Shown here one piece after another: positions 12,978 to 36,011 of a DNA stretch of 53,011 nucleotides (position 1 is its first letter; each line of letters opens with the position of its first letter). The position numbers and the translations under genes were made by a program. Below the pieces are notes generated by a model. It made no database searches and was not told the origin of the DNA. It saw nothing but the letters and a program-made list of their open reading frames with translations. The stretch is from a virus: positions 1-53,011 of the IMG/VR virus record IMGVR_UViG_3300011994_000001; one strand, 5' to 3'.

Positions 12978-13006
12978 TTTACTTACCCGCTATCTTAGTA
13001 TATACT
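12978..13006 (+). promoter_or_regulatory. Early promoter 1 (TTTACT-17-TATACT)
   Basis: The -35 box TTTACT is at 12978-12983 and the -10 box TATACT at 13001-13006, spacer 17 bp. It drives the helix-turn-helix and primase-helicase genes. Confidence 0.8.
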
Positions 13007-21018: not shown

Positions 21019-21528
21019 ATGTTAATATGCGCGAGGGCTTATACAGGTAAACAGCAAAGGAGTATGATACAGCCAAAGATATTTTGTAACCTATCTGGGT
21101 GCTACTGCCAGTATACCGAATGGTCAAGAGGTACCTACGACCAAGCTGAATCTTGTATAGAGTGCCCGAGATACCTTGGTGAGGAAGAGCTTGATTATGC
21201 TGATGTAGCGTTACAGAAAAAGTGCAGACTTATTATGGAGGACGCAACAAGTTTAGTAGCCTCCCTTAACAGTAATCCTACGCCAAAGATAAAGCGACCA
21301 AGCTTTAACTCAGTTATCCAAGGAAACGCCGATAACTTGAGTGCGCTCACCGGAGAGCTTATGGCGTCAAAGTCTAAACAGCGGAAAGAAGAACACACAA
21401 AGGAGAAACTTAATGTGCAAGAGTTGAGGGAAGTACAAGATGCGGAGTTGTGCAAAGGAGAGTCAAGAAACTTCTACCCAACAAGGACTACCGCCAAAAG
21501 TCGTTACGCAGAGGGCGAGTATTCATGA
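21019..21528 (+). CDS. Hypothetical protein with N-terminal Cys cluster
   Basis: A 169-residue protein. ATG 21019 has GAGGAGGG nine bases upstream. Residues 20-50 contain CNLSGCYCQYTEW and CIECPRYLGEEEL, likely a zinc site. The remainder is charged and probably helical. The gene ends at the TGA of an ATGA overlap with the amino-acid:DNA transferase-like gene, so they are translationally coupled and may work together. Function unknown. Confidence 0.55.
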   Translation: MLICARAYTGKQQRSMIQPKIFCNLSGCYCQYTEWSRGTYDQAESCIECPRYLGEEELDYADVALQKKCRLIMEDATSLVASLNSNPTPKIKRPSFNSVIQGNADNLSALTGELMASKSKQRKEEHTKEKLNVQELREVQDAELCKGESRNFYPTRTTAKSRYAEGEYS

Positions 21529-22517
21529 AGAATAGACCTGCGGATGTTCCTTATTGCGGGGTAAGAGAGGATAAGATCAAGAACGCAAAGCCCGTATTGA
21601 ACGAGACCAACTTCAAGTACTTGTTCGATTTCATAACGCGTAGGTATCGTATCCATAAAAAGAAAGACGTCAAGAAGTTACCCGCTCCGTGGACGAAAGA
21701 CCCGATACTGCGAGACTACAAGTTCACGAATGTTCGGAGAGAACACGACAGAGAATCTTTATGGCTTATCAAGAACATAGCCGAAAATGACTATCTTAGC
21801 TACGAAGACAAGCTGATGAATATTATCCTCTTTAGGATGTTTAACAAGTCGGACACCTCCTCAATAATCGGTCTGATACAATTCTCTACGTTTGATATTA
21901 TCAAGAAGAGTATCGAGGACAGGTTGAGACGGAAAGCGGAGAATACGCCTGACTATATATTCTTTACCAACGCCTTTCTTACCTGCGGTCTCAAAGTAGC
22001 TCTTGGGAATAACCCCGAAACTACTGACGAGTTTATGCCTATGAGGGTTATCAAGTTTATCGAGGTCTTGTACAAGGACGGTATCGTGGATAAGATCAAG
22101 AAAGCTAAAGATCAAAAAGCGGTCTTTGAGGTAGTCAAGAGCTACAAGGGGTTAGGAGAGTTTCTGAGCTATCAAATATTTGTAGATTTCACTTATATCC
22201 ACGACTTCCCATTCTCAGAGAATGAGTTTACAATATCGGGTCCAGGATGTATACGAGGGCTAGACAACGTCTTTGACGATAGGGACGGGATGACTCACGA
22301 CGAATGTTTATTCTGGTTACGGGATAACTTACACATGGAGTTCTTCGATAGAGGTTACAAATATGACCCTATCAAGCTATATAGCGACCTGCCGATGAGC
22401 GACAGGAGAACAAACGTAATGTCCTTGGAGAACATTCACTGTGAGTTGAGTAAGTATATCCGAGCGAGGAACGGCACGGGCGGTCCAAGAAACCGCTATA
22501 AACCGAGAGGATTATAA
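21525..22517 (+). CDS. DNA base hypermodification protein (amino-acid:DNA transferase-like, HMUDK_hel type)
   Basis: A 330-residue protein; ATG 21525 with GAGGGCGAG upstream. The signature near residues 54-80 (PAPWTKDPILRDYKFTNV, then RREHDRESLWL) is that of the helical domain of 5-hydroxymethyl-dU hypermodification proteins (Pfam HMUDK_hel, related to the alpha-glutamyl/putrescinyl-thymine pyrophosphorylases). The helical stretch YKGLGEFLSYQIFVDFTY and the FTISGPGCIRGLD site near residue 260 also fit this DNA-glycosylase-like fold. Family members act on DNA after replication and replace the pyrophosphate on hydroxymethyl-uracil with an amino acid or amine. Together with the proteins at 30517 and 33037 it points to base hypermodification. 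Confidence 0.7.
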   Translation: MKNRPADVPYCGVREDKIKNAKPVLNETNFKYLFDFITRRYRIHKKKDVKKLPAPWTKDPILRDYKFTNVRREHDRESLWLIKNIAENDYLSYEDKLMNIILFRMFNKSDTSSIIGLIQFSTFDIIKKSIEDRLRRKAENTPDYIFFTNAFLTCGLKVALGNNPETTDEFMPMRVIKFIEVLYKDGIVDKIKKAKDQKAVFEVVKSYKGLGEFLSYQIFVDFTYIHDFPFSENEFTISGPGCIRGLDNVFDDRDGMTHDECLFWLRDNLHMEFFDRGYKYDPIKLYSDLPMSDRRTNVMSLENIHCELSKYIRARNGTGGPRNRYKPRGL

Positions 22518-22645: not shown

Positions 22646-23119
22646 ATGAAAAGGGCAAAGTCTGCTATAAGTTACCTGCGTTTGGCTAGTTTCTATGCTA
22701 AAGAGAACTCAGGATGTTTAAAAGTTAAGGTAGGAGCGGTTATTGTAAAGAACGGTAAAGTTGTTGGTCTTGGAGCTAATCAAGCTGATCTAAACTTATG
22801 TTTGAGCGATAGAGGTTGCTTGCGTATAGAGAAGTATGGCGAGTCTTCCAAAGATCACCGACTTCCTGCCGATTGCAGGGCTGTACACTCCGAGGTCGAT
22901 GCTATCAGCTCTAGCCCCGTAGACCTAGAGGGAGCGACGATATATGTGACAAGATACCCCTGCGAATCTTGCGCCCGAGCTATTATATCTGCGGGTATAT
23001 CCAGAGTAGTCTACGGAAGGGAACAAAGTATAACGCCATATACGGACAGACTATTCGACTTCAACAATATTGAGGTATCTCACATAAGGGAGTACGCTGA
23101 AGAAGATGTTGTTGTATGA
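22646..23119 (+). CDS. dCMP deaminase
   Basis: A 157-residue cytidine/deoxycytidylate deaminase. Zinc ligands and general acid are present: His81 and Glu83 in VHSEVDAI, Cys106 and Cys109 in PCESCA. The N-terminal KVKVGAVIVKNGKVVG is the usual substrate strand. The enzyme converts dCMP to dUMP and so feeds the thymidylate-synthase-family enzyme at 34305. A clear GAGGAGG lies before the ATG. It is tightly followed by a small Cys protein and MazG, a nucleotide-pool cluster. Confidence 0.88.
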   Translation: MKRAKSAISYLRLASFYAKENSGCLKVKVGAVIVKNGKVVGLGANQADLNLCLSDRGCLRIEKYGESSKDHRLPADCRAVHSEVDAISSSPVDLEGATIYVTRYPCESCARAIISAGISRVVYGREQSITPYTDRLFDFNNIEVSHIREYAEEDVVV

Positions 23120-29380: not shown

Positions 29381-29396
29381 TCAAGGACTACTTGGG

Positions 29397-29422
29397 GGAG
29401 CGGTGACGCTCCTCTATTTTTA
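29397..29422 (+). terminator. Intrinsic terminator after the recombination operon
   Basis: GGAGCG-GTGA-CGCTCC hairpin followed by TCTATTTTTA. Confidence 0.8.
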
Positions 29423-29431
29423 AAATAAGTG

Positions 29432-29460
29432 TTTACTTTTTGAAGAAAGTATAGTATACT
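29432..29460 (+). promoter_or_regulatory. Early promoter 6 (TTTACT-17-TATACT)
   Basis: TTTACT is at 29432-29437 and TATACT at 29455-29460, spacer 17 bp. It drives the modification operon. Confidence 0.85.
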
Positions 29461-29503: not shown

Positions 29504-30505
29504 ATGTTAAATGTTAGATCCATCGAACACGGCAGAGGTACTATCCAGGGTATAAAATTTCTGATTGAGGGCAAGGATACGTTGGTAATTACCAGTCAAT
29601 CCGCTTGGTCATCGCTTAGAAAACTGTTGGCTTTTGGACCCGTAAATGTATTTTCAGCTACCTCTGTATCTCAGAAGAGTTTGGACGAGTTACTCGCTAT
29701 GTCTAAGAGGTTCAAGACCATTATCGGTATCGGGGGAGGTATGGTAATTGACTCAGCTAAGTACGTTGCTTGGATTACTGGAGCTAGACTTGTTCTTGTT
29801 CCTACTGTGTTATCAACTAACGCGTTTGCTACGGAAGCAATAGGCGTTCGTACCGAGGAAGGCAAAGTAGTGTATGTAGGTAACTCTCGTGCTGATAAGC
29901 TTATTGTAGACTTCGATCTGTTGAGAATGTCTCCCCCAGCGTTAAACTACTCAGGTACAGTAGACGTACTATCTTGCCATACAGCTACCCGAGATTGGGA
30001 GATAGCGGTTGAAGACGGAGTACTGAGTCACCCCTTAGACCTTCAGGCAGGTCGCAAAGCCCGCCAATTAGTGAACCGTATAGATAACTACTCTGAAGAC
30101 ATTAGAGAGCTTACGGACATCGGTTTGAAGGTCTTATTAGACTGCTTGCTAGATACCGCTGAGATATGTCAACCGCTAGGACACTACCGAGCGGAGGAAG
30201 GATCAGAACACTTCTTATTTTACGCTATCGAGAAGATACTCAAAAGACCGTTTATCCACGGTCAGATAGTAGGCCTGGGAATACAGATTATGAGTAGTCT
30301 ACAGGTAAACAGTACCAACGATATATCCTGTGTTATGAAGGATATCGGTCTTAATATAACCCCTAAGTCAATGGGTATTACCAAGGACGTTCTTAGACAA
30401 GCTTTGGTTGATCTTAGGACGTATCCTCAACCCTGGCATACGATTATTGATAGGGGTATATCAGATAGTTTTATCGAGCAAACGTTGTATTATTTGGAAT
30501 TCTAG
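29504..30505 (+). CDS. Metal-dependent dehydroquinate synthase / glycerol-1-phosphate dehydrogenase-like enzyme
   Basis: A 333-residue protein (ATG 29504; the upstream frame is the AGGAGG site itself). It has the fold signature of the DHQ synthase / iron-alcohol dehydrogenase superfamily: nucleotide-binding GIGGGMVIDSAKYVA near 73-87, LVLVPTVLSTNAFATEA, and metal ligands Asp154 (GTVDVLS), His236 (GSEHFLFYAIE) and His252 (FIHGQIVGLG). All ligands are present, so it should be active, using NAD and a polyol phosphate, keto-acid or alcohol. It opens the modification operon, 11 bases before the amino-acid:DNA transferase, so a role in preparing or altering the base substituent is likely. Its substrate cannot be read from sequence. 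Confidence 0.75.
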   Translation: MLNVRSIEHGRGTIQGIKFLIEGKDTLVITSQSAWSSLRKLLAFGPVNVFSATSVSQKSLDELLAMSKRFKTIIGIGGGMVIDSAKYVAWITGARLVLVPTVLSTNAFATEAIGVRTEEGKVVYVGNSRADKLIVDFDLLRMSPPALNYSGTVDVLSCHTATRDWEIAVEDGVLSHPLDLQAGRKARQLVNRIDNYSEDIRELTDIGLKVLLDCLLDTAEICQPLGHYRAEEGSEHFLFYAIEKILKRPFIHGQIVGLGIQIMSSLQVNSTNDISCVMKDIGLNITPKSMGITKDVLRQALVDLRTYPQPWHTIIDRGISDSFIEQTLYYLEF

Positions 30506-30516
30506 GAGGTTGTGTT

Positions 30517-31470
30517 ATGGATCTGTATAATATACACGGGGATACGGGCGGGGATTGGAGAATGAACAAGTTCAAAGAGTATTGCGACGGAGATATTGAC
30601 GACACGCTTGCTCCTATGAACTGGTTACTCAAAAAGGCGGGGGCTAATCGAGGAGATAGAATATGGGCGTCATTTCTCTATTCTACCTGCTATTGCCTAG
30701 GAACAACGATGTTTATGTATAACGAGTTATTCTATGGTACGCTGACACCCAGGAAATTAGACGAATTCTGGGAGGACTACAAAAAAGATCTGGTATTCCA
30801 AACAGACCGTAAGTACGCGAAGAATCTAAACTGGTTTGTGCCTATGGTAGTTCAGTTTATGGCTAAGACCAAGAGAGACCCAGAAAAGTACTTCAGACCG
30901 CTTCTAACAGGTACGCCCGAGGAAGTATACCGTAAGATGTACAAAGAGGTTTCAGGATGGAAGTTCTTTGGACGATTCTCCACGATACTATTCCTCAAGA
31001 CCCTCATATCTATTCTCCCTATCGAAATGGACTTTGATACAGAGTACGATTGGGCTAATGGAGAAACCACTACCGCGGGGGCTCTTATCTTACACTACCG
31101 CGACGAAGAAGCCAAACAGTTTCTCCTAGATCATAAGATCACGCCTGACATGAAGAAGTATTTTGACGAGTTACTGGAAGAGTGTAAAGGCAAGATAGCG
31201 GGTAATATGCTCCATACCTCATCCGCTTTTTGTAGTCACTTTAAATTATACAAAGAGCAAAGGTACCTTGGATATTACGTTGATCGAGGTCAACACGAAC
31301 TTAGAACTCTACAAAAGAACCTACCTCAAGCTCACGAGCTGTGGGACCGAATATGGATAGCCCGAAGAAGGACTATTGATTGGAAGTATCTTGGGGAGAT
31401 CAACGGTTGGGCTGGTACAAGACCTGAGAAGTGTCATGACTTTATGAAAACTGGAAGGATGTATGAATAA
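30517..31470 (+). CDS. Amino-acid:DNA transferase-like protein (thymine pyrophosphorylase clade 2 type)
   Basis: A 317-residue protein. RGDRIWASFLYSTCYCLGTT near 45-64, VFQTDRKYAKNLNWFV and GWKFFGRFSTILFLKTL near 145-165 recall the amino-acid:DNA transferase (alpha-glutamyl/putrescinyl thymine pyrophosphorylase clade 2) family of hypermodifying phages. These proteins swap the pyrophosphate of pyrophosphorylated hydroxymethyl-uracil in DNA for an amino acid. The basic RRRTIDWKY end fits DNA binding. Stop and next ATG overlap (TAATG). It is the second such protein in the genome. I rely on remembered family patterns, not an alignment. Confidence 0.65.
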   Translation: MDLYNIHGDTGGDWRMNKFKEYCDGDIDDTLAPMNWLLKKAGANRGDRIWASFLYSTCYCLGTTMFMYNELFYGTLTPRKLDEFWEDYKKDLVFQTDRKYAKNLNWFVPMVVQFMAKTKRDPEKYFRPLLTGTPEEVYRKMYKEVSGWKFFGRFSTILFLKTLISILPIEMDFDTEYDWANGETTTAGALILHYRDEEAKQFLLDHKITPDMKKYFDELLEECKGKIAGNMLHTSSAFCSHFKLYKEQRYLGYYVDRGQHELRTLQKNLPQAHELWDRIWIARRRTIDWKYLGEINGWAGTRPEKCHDFMKTGRMYE

Positions 31471-31643
31471 TGACAGACGCTATAAAAGATACCAAAATTA
31501 ATCTTTGTTCTACTTGCGCGTTTGAGATTCCTTCTTGCGAAGCTAGTCCTGAAGATATTGAGTTCGGCGACGGTCTGAGTAATGATAATGTAATACTTTG
31601 TAAGCATTATGAGCTGGAAGAAGGAATTGTTTATGAGCAATAA
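31470..31643 (+). CDS. Small Cys-containing protein in the modification operon
   Basis: A 57-residue protein (MTDAIKDTKINLCSTCAFEI). Cys pairs CSTC, then SC and CKHY are compatible with one metal site, as in other small proteins here that contain the 'CSTCAFEIPSCEA' pattern. Start overlaps the previous stop; its end overlaps the start of the glycosyltransferase. Function unknown. Confidence 0.6.
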   Translation: MTDAIKDTKINLCSTCAFEIPSCEASPEDIEFGDGLSNDNVILCKHYELEEGIVYEQ

Positions 31644-32601
31644 TGAATGGCAAGAAGGCAAGCCTTATCGAACTGAGAAAATTAGCAGAAAGGTAGCGGG
31701 ACGAAAGCTTGAGATTCCAATTTGTATCCCGTCCTACGGTAGACCCGACTCAGCTATGTTCAAGATTTTAGAGAAAGAACCCGATCTGCCTATGGTTTTC
31801 TTTATCCGAGAGGAGCAGAAAGAGCTGTATGCAGGATTGAAGGGCAAAGCCCGTATAGTTACTCTAAAGAACGTGGATAACATAGGACAGACCCGAGCTA
31901 AGATTGTAAAGTGGGCTCATAAGCAGGGTTACGAGAATATATTTATGTTTGACGATAAAGTAACCGCTGTAAATGCCCTCGCTCCTAGACTTAGCAGGAA
32001 CGATAATTGGTCGATGAGCAAGTTTACTACGACGATGTATCAAGCTCTTCAAGTTTGGGAATACCTTATCAGAAAGTACAAACCCTGCATGTCAGGAGGT
32101 CTCCACAAAGGATTCAGTTTCTCCCCAGGTAACATCAACGCTGAGCCTGAGATAGCCCCGGGTATATGGTGCGCTATACAACTTAACGTCGATATGTTGT
32201 CTGAGAATGATATTAACTACCGAGACAGTAATATATACGGTCACGAGGATAACATAATGGAGATAGAGGTTATGCAGAAGCGTCTAAAGCATATTTGCTT
32301 CAAGGATATCGAGTTTGATAACATACCTTCCTCCGACAAGTATACGGGCGGGATTCAGGATACGTGCCCCGAGAGCGAGACTAGACTGGAACGGGTAAGT
32401 AGACTATCTGATCTTGTAGAGAAGTTCGTAGGCAAGGGTCACCCTGGAATAATATTTTATACTTGGAAAGACGGAGCGAGATATGTGCGCATGAATTGGA
32501 AATACTGGAGAAAGCATTACTCCGAAGAACCTAAATTGACTAAGAAACAAATCGATCGTTTTAACGTATTGAAATTGTCGGAGGTATCCAAGGATGAGTA
32601 G
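31633..32601 (+). CDS. TET-associated-type glycosyltransferase (GT-A fold)
   Basis: A 322-residue protein; ATG 31633 chosen for the AAGGA nine bases upstream. It has a GT-A N-terminus (IPICIPSYGRPDSAMF), the LKNVDNIGQTRAKIVKWA helix with its conserved Asn-Ile-Gly-Gln-x-Arg, and the metal-binding MFDDKV near residue 107. The acceptor part carries NIYGHEDNIMEIEVM. This layout matches the TET/JBP-associated glycosyltransferase family, which attaches sugars to hydroxymethyl bases in DNA. No TET enzyme is present, so the target is likely the base made by the 34305 enzyme or a further modified form. It lies in one operon with transferase and HAD genes. Confidence 0.65.
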   Translation: MSNNEWQEGKPYRTEKISRKVAGRKLEIPICIPSYGRPDSAMFKILEKEPDLPMVFFIREEQKELYAGLKGKARIVTLKNVDNIGQTRAKIVKWAHKQGYENIFMFDDKVTAVNALAPRLSRNDNWSMSKFTTTMYQALQVWEYLIRKYKPCMSGGLHKGFSFSPGNINAEPEIAPGIWCAIQLNVDMLSENDINYRDSNIYGHEDNIMEIEVMQKRLKHICFKDIEFDNIPSSDKYTGGIQDTCPESETRLERVSRLSDLVEKFVGKGHPGIIFYTWKDGARYVRMNWKYWRKHYSEEPKLTKKQIDRFNVLKLSEVSKDE

Positions 32602-32992
32602 AATATTGGATCAAGCAGAGTACGATTCTCTCCCTAAAATTGCGGCGGTAGACTTCGATGGAACCCTGGCTATTGTAAAAAACTATCGAGGAACTGGCGT
32701 TGCTAATCGCCTAGTAATGGATAGGGTCAAGAGACTGCAGAAAGAGGGCTGGAAGCTTATCCTATGGACCTGTAGAGACGATGAGAACGAGGACATGGAG
32801 TTGACGTCTGCGGTACTATTCTGTGCAAAACACGGGCTATTCTTCGATGCGGTCAACGAGAATATCAAGGAAGTTCAAGACCTTATGGAAGGAGATACGC
32901 GAAAGATATATGCTAACGTGTACATTGACGATAAGTCAATAGTAGACTGGGATAAAATATTACCTTTACTTTTAGAGGAAAGAGTAGTATAA
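32594..32992 (+). CDS. HAD-family phosphatase, copy 1
   Basis: A 132-residue HAD hydrolase with motif I at residues 20-24 (DFDGT), WKLILWTCRD (motif II with Thr) and VYIDDKSI (motif IV Asp pair). There is no cap domain. A closely similar domain ends the protein at 35364-36011 (WKVILWTCRD, FDAVNENIKEV in both). It likely removes phosphate from a nucleotide or sugar-phosphate in the modification pathway. The start overlaps the glycosyltransferase by eight bases. Its 3' end contains the promoter of the kinase operon. Confidence 0.75.
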   Translation: MSRILDQAEYDSLPKIAAVDFDGTLAIVKNYRGTGVANRLVMDRVKRLQKEGWKLILWTCRDDENEDMELTSAVLFCAKHGLFFDAVNENIKEVQDLMEGDTRKIYANVYIDDKSIVDWDKILPLLLEERVV

Positions 32993-32993
32993 T
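32965..32993 (+). promoter_or_regulatory. Early promoter 7 (TTTACT-17-TATAAT), inside the HAD gene
   Basis: TTTACT is at 32965-32970 and TATAAT at 32988-32993, spacer 17 bp, overlapping the last codons of the HAD gene. It drives the long kinase-to-helicase operon 33037-38786. Confidence 0.8.
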
Positions 32994-33036: not shown

Positions 33037-33654
33037 ATGAAACTACTTGTAAATATACGCGGGACAAACGGAGCGGGAAAATCCACGATACCTATGGCTA
33101 TGCTAGACGATCCAAAGATGCACGTTGTAGGATGCGGGTACAAGGCTGAGAAGCCCTGTGCCCCGTGGCTAACTGTATTTCCTACCTACGGATGGGTTGC
33201 CTTGGGTACGTACCGAGCTAAGACGGGCGGGATGGATACTATGTCGACCAACGCTGATATAGCCTTTGCTCTAGCTACCGCTTGGGATAGATACCCAGAG
33301 AGAGATATACTAATGGAGGGTATCATAGCCTCAACGATTAAGTCCACTTATGCCGAGCTTTTTGGTAATTACCAGTCTATGGTAGACGCGGAGGAAGTTA
33401 CCCCGAGGAAGATCGTAATTATGTCGTTTGTACCGCCCTTGGAGGTATGCCTATCCCGAGTTCAGGAGCGTAACGGGGGAAAACCTGTTAAAGAGGACGC
33501 AATAGCTGGTAAGTGGAGAACGGTAGACCGAAACGTGCAGTACTTCAAAGATATGGGATTTACATCCTTGCGGATAGATAACTCCAATATCAAGAAGGAA
33601 AGTATGTTCAAGAACTTCTTGCGAACTTGTGATAAGTACCGAGAGGAGGACTAG
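33037..33654 (+). CDS. P-loop kinase, 5-hydroxymethyl-pyrimidine DNA kinase-like
   Basis: A 205-residue protein opening with NIRGTNGAGKSTI, residues 6-18 (Walker A GTNGAGKST), the start typical of 5-hydroxymethyl-dU DNA kinases of hypermodifying phages. These enzymes phosphorylate the hydroxymethyl group in DNA before the amino-acid:DNA transferase acts. Other features are DILMEGIIAST (Walker B region) and IVIMSFVPPLEVCLSRVQER. A nucleotide-monophosphate kinase would be the alternative. GAGAGGAG lies before the ATG. Confidence 0.65.
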   Translation: MKLLVNIRGTNGAGKSTIPMAMLDDPKMHVVGCGYKAEKPCAPWLTVFPTYGWVALGTYRAKTGGMDTMSTNADIAFALATAWDRYPERDILMEGIIASTIKSTYAELFGNYQSMVDAEEVTPRKIVIMSFVPPLEVCLSRVQERNGGKPVKEDAIAGKWRTVDRNVQYFKDMGFTSLRIDNSNIKKESMFKNFLRTCDKYREED

Positions 33655-34304: not shown

Positions 34305-35009
34305 ATGGGGTATTTAATTGCTAATAACGCTACTCAAGCTTGGGAAAGTTTGTATTATCAACTAAAAAATCAAGCTAGAAACGGGTTTTTACAACCGTCC
34401 CGAGCGGGAAATGTAGTAGGAGAAATCATAAACGCTGTAACAGTAATCAAGAACCCTCGCCAGGGTATCGTAGAATCCAAGATAAGAAATATGTCTATAA
34501 AATACGCTCTTGGAGAGTTACTTTGGTATATGTCGGGCAGTAACCGCTTGAGCGATATCTCTCCTTACTCTAAAGCTTGGGAAGGTCTATCAGACGATGG
34601 GGAGACGGTAAACTCAGCGTATGGGTACAGAATAGGTTCTATGTTTGGATTTGATCAGTACTCCTACGTGAGAGATATGCTACACAGAGACCCTTTATCG
34701 CGTCAGGCTATTATCCATATTAAAGACCCTAGTGAGAAGATAACTAAAGACACTCCTTGTACCCTGTCACTCCAATACCTCTTGCGGGACGGAAAACTGC
34801 ACGCTACCACGGTAATGCGATCAAACGATATTTGGCTTGGGTTCCCTTATGACGTATTCGCTTTTACCTCTCTACAGGTGATGATGGCTATGGAGCTAGG
34901 GGTAGACGTGGGAGAGTATACCCATATAGCTGGATCGCTACACTTGTACGAACGAGATTTGAAAGGGGCTGTAAACGTTGGAACTACACAAGATAGCGAT
35001 AAAAGTTGA
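34305..35009 (+). CDS. Thymidylate-synthase-family pyrimidine hydroxymethylase
   Basis: A 234-residue ThyA-family protein: catalytic Cys152 (TPCTLSLQY), phosphate site (SRQAIIHI), MRSNDIWLGFPYDVFAFT and HIAGSLHLYERDL. The position equivalent to the dUMP-reading Asn177 of E. coli ThyA is Asp183, the change seen in T4 dCMP hydroxymethylase and related enzymes. It ends about 25 residues early and lacks the usual ThyA C-terminal tail that closes over folate. This points to a hydroxymethylase, giving 5-hydroxymethyl-dCMP or -dUMP, the first step of hypermodification. The ATG has AGAGGAGGG upstream. Confidence 0.75.
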   Translation: MGYLIANNATQAWESLYYQLKNQARNGFLQPSRAGNVVGEIINAVTVIKNPRQGIVESKIRNMSIKYALGELLWYMSGSNRLSDISPYSKAWEGLSDDGETVNSAYGYRIGSMFGFDQYSYVRDMLHRDPLSRQAIIHIKDPSEKITKDTPCTLSLQYLLRDGKLHATTVMRSNDIWLGFPYDVFAFTSLQVMMAMELGVDVGEYTHIAGSLHLYERDLKGAVNVGTTQDSDKS

Positions 35010-35363: not shown

Positions 35364-36011
35364 ATGACATGCGGTAATACTATTGATTGTAGAGACTGTG
35401 AGGATAGATATAAATGCGGGCCAGCTGTGGGTATGATAGGAGATTACACAACTAAAGAGTATGAAAAAATGAAAGCCCGTAAATCGTCTGTTAGTACTGA
35501 TATCGATTATTCAAGACGCTGCGGAGAGTTTGGACATTCTGATGCTATGAATAGGGCTAGTTGCGTATCTTGCAGTATGCACGCGATAGAGTTGTACAAA
35601 GCTTGCTTAAATAAAAAACACGCTGGGGTTACCCCGAAAACGTACAAAGATAAACCCAAAGTTGAGAAACAACATATGGATAAGCTACCAAGTATATTAG
35701 CGGTAGACTTCGATGGAACTCTCGTTCACGATGACTATCCCTTGATTGGTAAGGCTAGAACGGAGGTATTTGACCTTGTAAGAACGTATATCCACAGAGG
35801 TTGGAAAGTTATCTTATGGACTTGTAGGGATCACGAATGGTTAGCTAGTGCCGTTGACTATTGTAGGAACCAGGGTCTAGAGTTTGACGCTGTTAACGAG
35901 AATATCAAAGAGGTCAAGGAAATGTTCGACAACGATACCCGTAAGGTGTTTGCTAATATTTATATTGACGATAAATTTTTGTTTGTAGAAGGTGTTAATA
36001 ATGCCTCTTGA
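35364..36011 (+). CDS. Cys-rich N-terminal domain fused to HAD phosphatase, copy 2
   Basis: A 215-residue protein. Residues 1-75 hold about eight Cys in pairs (CRDCEDRYKC, CGEFGH, CVSC), likely a zinc domain. Residues 108-210 are a HAD hydrolase with DFDGT at 115-119, WKVILWTCRD and IYIDDKF. The HAD part is a paralogue of 32594-32992, with FDAVNENIKEV identical in both. The zinc domain probably recruits it to DNA or a partner. Good AGAGGAGG before the ATG. Confidence 0.72.
   Translation: MTCGNTIDCRDCEDRYKCGPAVGMIGDYTTKEYEKMKARKSSVSTDIDYSRRCGEFGHSDAMNRASCVSCSMHAIELYKACLNKKHAGVTPKTYKDKPKVEKQHMDKLPSILAVDFDGTLVHDDYPLIGKARTEVFDLVRTYIHRGWKVILWTCRDHEWLASAVDYCRNQGLEFDAVNENIKEVKEMFDNDTRKVFANIYIDDKFLFVEGVNNAS

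Follow-up and report, generated by a model that had tools for sequence, protein, structure and literature searches.

The products of amino acid:DNA transferases (AADTs) of which we know use amino acids or polyamines. AADT/HMUDK cassettes of the YuA/M6, ViI and LysYB1 types resemble the phage locus described here in combining a 5-hydroxymethyl DNA kinase with a thymidylate synthase (TS)-family hydroxymethylase, several of them also with an AADT; they differ in that none of those searched carries the dehydrogenase reported below, and in the TS itself, which has Asn177 in YuA, LysYB1 and Goe26 and Asp in the present phage group. For the dehydrogenase, the relevant comparison is with the archaeal EgsA and Bacillus subtilis AraM sn-glycerol-1-phosphate dehydrogenases (G1PDH; cd08549/PF13685), which share its fold (Z 32-34), GGG loop, Asp/His/His site and length, and from which it departs in having Tyr for the second His, Glu232, Asn106 and Met80, in belonging to a separate clade, and in residing in a phage operon. 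We found no paper tying G1P dehydrogenase to phage DNA modification or to auxiliary metabolic genes, in a search that covered the thymidine-hypermodification literature incompletely, so that an earlier description is possible. The dihydroxypentyl-uracil of phage SP-15 was considered as a parallel and set aside: its published cluster comprises a UDP-glucose dehydrogenase, glycosyltransferases and a CDP-glycerol transferase, with no Fe-ADH.

Here we analyze a 53,011-base IMG/VR virus record, read as one stretch (the window), in which a gene for an unusual dehydrogenase lies directly upstream of an AADT gene. We define the subfamily to which the enzyme very likely belongs, document its position relative to sibling phages, and weigh the functions that it might serve. 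With a dedicated dehydrogenase at its head, an AADT unit would suggest the use of another class of building block; the small gene set involved (dehydrogenase, AADT, glycosyltransferase, kinase and hydroxymethylase) can be rebuilt in vitro. The functional assignment is offered as a hypothesis, its support being the order of genes in a single genome.

Results and Discussion

A dehydrogenase gene upstream of AADT

The gene occupies positions 29504-30505 (+ strand, as are the hairpin, the promoters at 29432-29460 and 32965-32993, and the AADT, glycosyltransferase, small HAD-like (32594-32992), kinase, helical-domain, TS-family and dCMP deaminase-like genes described below) and encodes, from an ATG start, 333 amino acids plus stop of a Fe-ADH_2/G1PDH-like dehydrogenase of the NAD(P)-/metal type, assigned to what we term the Tyr240 subfamily. 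A good ribosome site, GGAGGAG, stands immediately 5' of the ATG. The stop codon (30503-30505) is separated by 11 bases from the AADT start codon at 30517, and the ribosome binding site of AADT sits at the dehydrogenase stop codon; the location and the spacing agree with those given in a preliminary description of the window.

On the 5' side, an intrinsic-terminator-like hairpin (29393-29416) follows an SSB-like gene, and similar hairpins are found between SSB and AADT, at the same gene boundary, in most siblings inspected. Next comes a promoter of the form TTTACT-N17-TATACT (29432-29460), assigned by its motif to a phage family whose following member, TTTACT-N17-TATAAT (32965-32993), precedes the kinase gene. 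Sites matching TTTACT-N17-TATANT with at most one mismatch number 18 in the window, as against 2.7 expected and a count of 18 reached by none of the shuffled sequences; this enrichment indicates that the dehydrogenase promoter is part of a real family. Example sites lie at 12978, 15502, 25556, 29432, 32965, 38794, 40973 and 43052, and many of these promoters have a TTTACTTT...GGAAA-like core. No terminator-like site was seen on the + strand 3' of the dehydrogenase, nor further on as far as the glycosyltransferase gene. From this absence, the expected transcript would comprise dehydrogenase, AADT, glycosyltransferase and HAD genes, and the dehydrogenase is probably the first gene of the AADT-containing transcription unit. 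The earlier proposal that it shares a promoter with AADT is thereby strengthened as to the promoter itself and the uninterrupted stretch beyond it, the joint transcript being a prediction.

The modification cassette and the base that it may modify

The AADT homologue (30517-31470) scores 32.7 bits with PF18724 (cut-off 26.2) and matches phrog_3271; its match in Lysinibacillus phage LysYB1 covers 98%. A TAGT-like DNA glycosyltransferase follows (31609-32601), with 25.7 bits against a PF20691 cut-off of 27.5, matches to phrog_842 and phrog_4519, and TAGT homologues in siblings. The end of its gene is overlapped by that of a small HAD-like protein (32594-32992; phrog_24386, phrog_1238), which has a paralogue at 35364-36011; in L005 and similar siblings, it is the copy near TS that is matched. 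Beyond these lie the P-loop part of a 5-hydroxymethyl-pyrimidine DNA kinase (HMUDK_HMUD1; 33037-33654; PF18748, 84.4 bits against 27) and the TS-family pyrimidine hydroxymethylase (34305-35009). A separate HMUDK helical-domain protein is encoded at 21450-22517 (PF18723, 229.9 bits against 25), with a dCMP deaminase-like gene at 22646-23119. The DNA kinase is thus split between genes 10.5 kb apart, its two parts being fused in Goe26 (L110) and in several viral contigs.

Where E. coli TS has RSCDVFLGLPFN, the window homologue shows RSNDIWLGFPYD, which puts Asp in the place of E. coli N177, as in dCMP-type enzymes. Asp is likewise found in all siblings whose motif was found and in Agathobaculum phage AB434P2, and Asn at position 177 in YuA, LysYB1, Goe26 and E. 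coli. The dUMP-type Asn177 expected of a thymidine (hmdU-based) hypermodification pathway was seen neither in the window nor in the siblings whose motif was located. Replacement of this Asn by Asp switches the preference of TS from dUMP to dCMP, and Asp marks cytosine-modifying phages (PMC8670742). The best PDB match of the homologue is the CMP hydroxymethylase MilA (113.7 bits; best TS, 78). Since both the Asp and the MilA match point the same way, the modified base may be cytosine rather than thymine, in the form of 5-hydroxymethylcytosine, a reading that the dCMP deaminase also present could change. The phage group may, then, hydroxymethylate dCMP and run its kinase and AADT chemistry on cytosine, and the occurrence of a dCMP-type hydroxymethylase across the group raises the general question of whether phosphorylate-and-displace chemistry extends to that base.

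An insertion among sibling phages

A scan with the kinase fetched 40 viral contigs, several of them fragments, and many share a common backbone of PolA, RecA-like, SSB-like, AADT, kinase and TS genes. When these 40 HMUDK-bearing loci and other siblings were searched with a dehydrogenase HMM, only the window copy was retrieved. The gap between SSB and AADT is at most 86 bases in 17 of the 18 contigs having both genes (the exception is 591); in the window it measures 1,136 bases and contains the promoter and the dehydrogenase. Given so short a gap in the siblings, the dehydrogenase is a gene inserted where the cassette begins with AADT, and because all detected siblings with the AADT-kinase core are devoid of it, an add-on. 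It is missing from about 20 sibling contigs that have AADT and is therefore unneeded for the basic chemistry. The gene matches the phage in G+C content (0.433 versus 0.437) and has phage-like codon use (r 0.87), which probably reflects long residence in the phage or a donor of similar composition. An assembly chimera was considered and judged unlikely, given phage genes on both sides, a phage promoter in front and the codon use just noted. The preliminary description would have been refuted if the gene were absent from related phages and proved to be a housekeeping enzyme lately picked up from the host; the first of these is what we observe and the second is not, since its relatives are no housekeeping enzymes, the nearest of them stands at 38% identity and the codon use is that of the phage.

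Siblings carry other extras in the cassette: a methyltransferase in L005 and, in L123 (11554-12561), a radical SAM/SPASM gene between the TAGT glycosyltransferase and kinase genes, possibly another tailoring enzyme. AADT and kinase are apparently fused in one ORF in two contigs (L131:3095-4702 and L136:492-2018), and these fusions support the two as a functional pair. In several siblings, a gene for a DUF2284 (predicted metal-binding) protein immediately precedes that of the dCMP deaminase (L113:3266-3916; L111:11870-12505).

The annotated phage collection INPHARED yielded no credible dehydrogenase homologue, as compared with 398 records containing the kinase and 250 containing AADT. Two matches labeled "Bacteriophage sp." (MT837087.1 and MT835727.1) were rejected as phage relatives: they are unannotated fecal contigs with bacterial-looking genes around the match, including chorismate mutase/prephenate dehydratase, MatE and ABC transporters, and a sensor kinase. 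Pattern scans of IMG/VR viral contigs with the protein and with four alignments, which require short conserved peptides and could let diverged copies escape, found no relative, and a BFVD fold search gave no match at E <= 1e-3. The window gene is the only viral copy found in these searches. By this and by its subfamily, the dehydrogenase is more unusual than the preliminary description stated.

A rare bacterial subfamily with Tyr at position 240

A genome scan with the single protein gave no relatives; an alignment-guided search afterwards did. At position 240, the window protein has Tyr in place of the second active-site His that canonical relatives keep without exception, a feature not noticed previously. 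All 88 canonical rows of our alignment have His240, Ser232 and Asp106, where the window protein has Tyr, Glu and Asn; Tyr240 and Glu232 occur in every subfamily member, and Arg116, Tyr124, Gly114 and Ala107 are fixed in the subfamily and absent or rare among canonical rows. The Lys following GGG (Lys80), invariant or nearly so in canonical rows, is Met here. In a tree of 30 proteins, the window protein falls within an eight-row group with proteins of L151, L152, L107 and L020/L106/L021, parted from the canonical G1PDH/AraM/clostridial group by a branch with 100/100 support; an earlier 33-row tree lacking L151 and L152 gave the same split. Placement inside the group is less certain, with 82/66 support for window, L151 and L152 together and a long branch for L107. 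We consider it very likely that the window protein is a member of this Tyr240 subfamily, which is a rare, uncharacterised bacterial branch of a well-known superfamily. Two of 398 Bacillota genomes sampled contain it; sampling of 398 genomes from the L065 phylum gave no member. We know of no description of its function.

The bacterial members, in Bacillota (L151/L153 and L152/L154), Trueperaceae (L020), L021, L106 and L107, share the clade and signature residues of the window protein at 28-38% identity, the nearest found being the Bacillota proteins of L151 and L152 (36-38%). They differ in occupying chromosomal ABC-transporter or catabolic loci rather than a phage. In L151/L153, the neighbors are a class-III aminotransferase, an ABC solute-binding protein and, beyond the dehydrogenase, an ABC permease; in L152/L154, an FGGY sugar kinase and a class-III aminotransferase are followed by the dehydrogenase and an ABC permease. 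Two paralogues in L021 accompany ABC transporter genes and a DgaE-type PLP lyase. ABC sugar transporters are present in L020 and L109, the latter also having IolE/IolG-like genes several kilobases off, and L108 has an ABC transporter, an SDR and a DHDPS-like aldolase. Neighbors lacking an HMM match were named by reading their sequences. These neighborhoods point to sugar, polyol or amino-polyol metabolism, and it is from them that we predict the class of substrate; that they vary between members counts against this prediction.

Predicted role of the enzyme

The earlier suggestion of a tailoring enzyme for DNA bases draws on gene position; gene order in this one genome leaves the odds that the dehydrogenase is linked to DNA modification about evenly balanced. 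The complete model that we tentatively prefer, with confidence somewhat short of that balance, is that it makes or adjusts a small molecule that AADT attaches, the tie to AADT being drawn from position. A phage ancestor would have acquired the gene from the bacterial Tyr240-type subfamily; the enzyme would perform a metal-dependent, NAD(P)-linked interconversion of alcohol and ketone in a small compound of polyol, ketose or cyclitol type, yielding a small molecule either made by it or changed in oxidation state; AADT would couple this molecule to phosphorylated 5-hydroxymethyl-pyrimidine in phage DNA, and the glycosyltransferase may then decorate the AADT product. The tie is favored by the 11-base gap, the ribosome site at the upstream stop codon, the shared promoter and the point of insertion, exactly where AADT begins the cassette; against it, we found no second phage combining dehydrogenase and AADT, and hence no support from co-occurrence. 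In a narrower version, the enzyme would produce a nucleophile of polyol, amino-polyol or cyclitol origin for AADT to place on a phosphorylated 5-hydroxymethyl base, which may be cytosine rather than thymine, and the resulting adduct would derive from neither an amino acid nor a polyamine; this version is unlikely in its full detail.

The main rival, possible if somewhat unlikely, is that the dehydrogenase is an auxiliary metabolic gene, unrelated to DNA modification, which alters the polyol, redox or carbon metabolism of the infected host and stands next to AADT by accident of insertion. Promoter and gene inserted together at a gene boundary, and missing from all siblings found, have a moron-like appearance, and the bacterial relatives belong to uptake and catabolism loci; yet the tight coupling to AADT, the use of the phage's own promoter family and the lack of a + strand terminator-like site after the gene argue against this rival. 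Rather improbable is that the dehydrogenase prepares not an acceptor for AADT but an uncommon donor sugar for use by the TAGT-like glycosyltransferase. The gene of the latter is the second one downstream, and the stretch between shows no + strand terminator-like site, but siblings L123-L126, L131 and L136 have TAGT without the dehydrogenase, and the genes examined included no recognizable nucleotidyltransferase. Of the two, AADT is the likelier user of the dehydrogenase product.

Fold, family scores and active site

An AlphaFold2 model built from 42 sequences (pLDDT 89.8, pTM 0.88) has the two-domain fold of the DHQ-synthase/Fe-ADH superfamily, with whole-length structural matches at Z 26-34. 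The top structural neighbors are AraM (9h4x, Z 33.7), 3ce9 (33.3) and 5fb3 (33.0); M. jannaschii G1PDH entries score about 32, glycerol dehydrogenases about 28-31, and Fe-ADHs, DHQ synthases (DHQS) and ValA about 26-27. The uncharacterised "glycerol dehydrogenase" 3ce9 of C. acetobutylicum, first in Foldseek rank and the best PDB match by sequence (phmmer, E 1.6e-23), differs from the window protein in belonging, with clostridial Fe-ADHs, to the canonical His240 group. Pfam Fe-ADH_2 (PF13685) is passed at 46.1 against a gathering cut-off of 28, as is the Pfam Fe-ADH cut-off, and the GldA model NF006941 reaches 51 of a required 336.

The prior assignment to a DHQ-synthase/G1P-dehydrogenase type therefore holds for the superfamily, the protein itself falling outside both the G1PDH/AraM group and DHQ synthase. 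That it is a true sn-glycerol-1-phosphate dehydrogenase of AraM/EgsA type, supplying G1P for lipid or a DNA adduct, is a shade less probable even than the sugar-donor reading: NF002022 (G1P dehydrogenase) is the best NCBIfam model (E 3.7e-32), and AraM and G1PDH are among the structural neighbors, but its 111.7 bits lie far under the cut-off of 413, the tree places the protein off the G1PDH/AraM side, and His240, Ser232, Asp106 and the Lys after GGG are all replaced. A DHQ-synthase-like cyclase using NAD catalytically to give a cyclitol would share the superfamily, the N-terminal DHQ_synthase match and the similarity to DHQS and ValA; it is nonetheless very improbable, with 24.2 bits against 305 for AroB (TIGR01357), 23 against 24.2 for PF01761, and a sequence and structure nearer to G1PDH and glycerol dehydrogenases. 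Equally improbable is oxidation or reduction of the adduct after its attachment to DNA, compatible with the enzyme's position in one unit with AADT and the glycosyltransferase but at variance with the superfamily members matched in our searches, which act on small metabolites in an active site formed by the cleft between two domains (PMC5125639).

For the small-molecule dehydrogenase that we prefer, catalytic activity is likely, as predicted from the active-site residues. Gly77-79 (GGG), Asp154, His236 and His252 align with the invariant cofactor and ligand columns of 88 homologues, which bears out the earlier observation of intact metal ligands and GGG motif. In FucO and GraC, the side chain four positions beyond the His ligand is proposed to touch substrate, not metal, and human ADHFE1 has Tyr at that position (PMC5125639). 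By this analogy, Tyr240 suggests a changed substrate specificity rather than an inactive enzyme. Within the subfamily, Asp154 is replaced by Glu in the proteins of L020 and L106.
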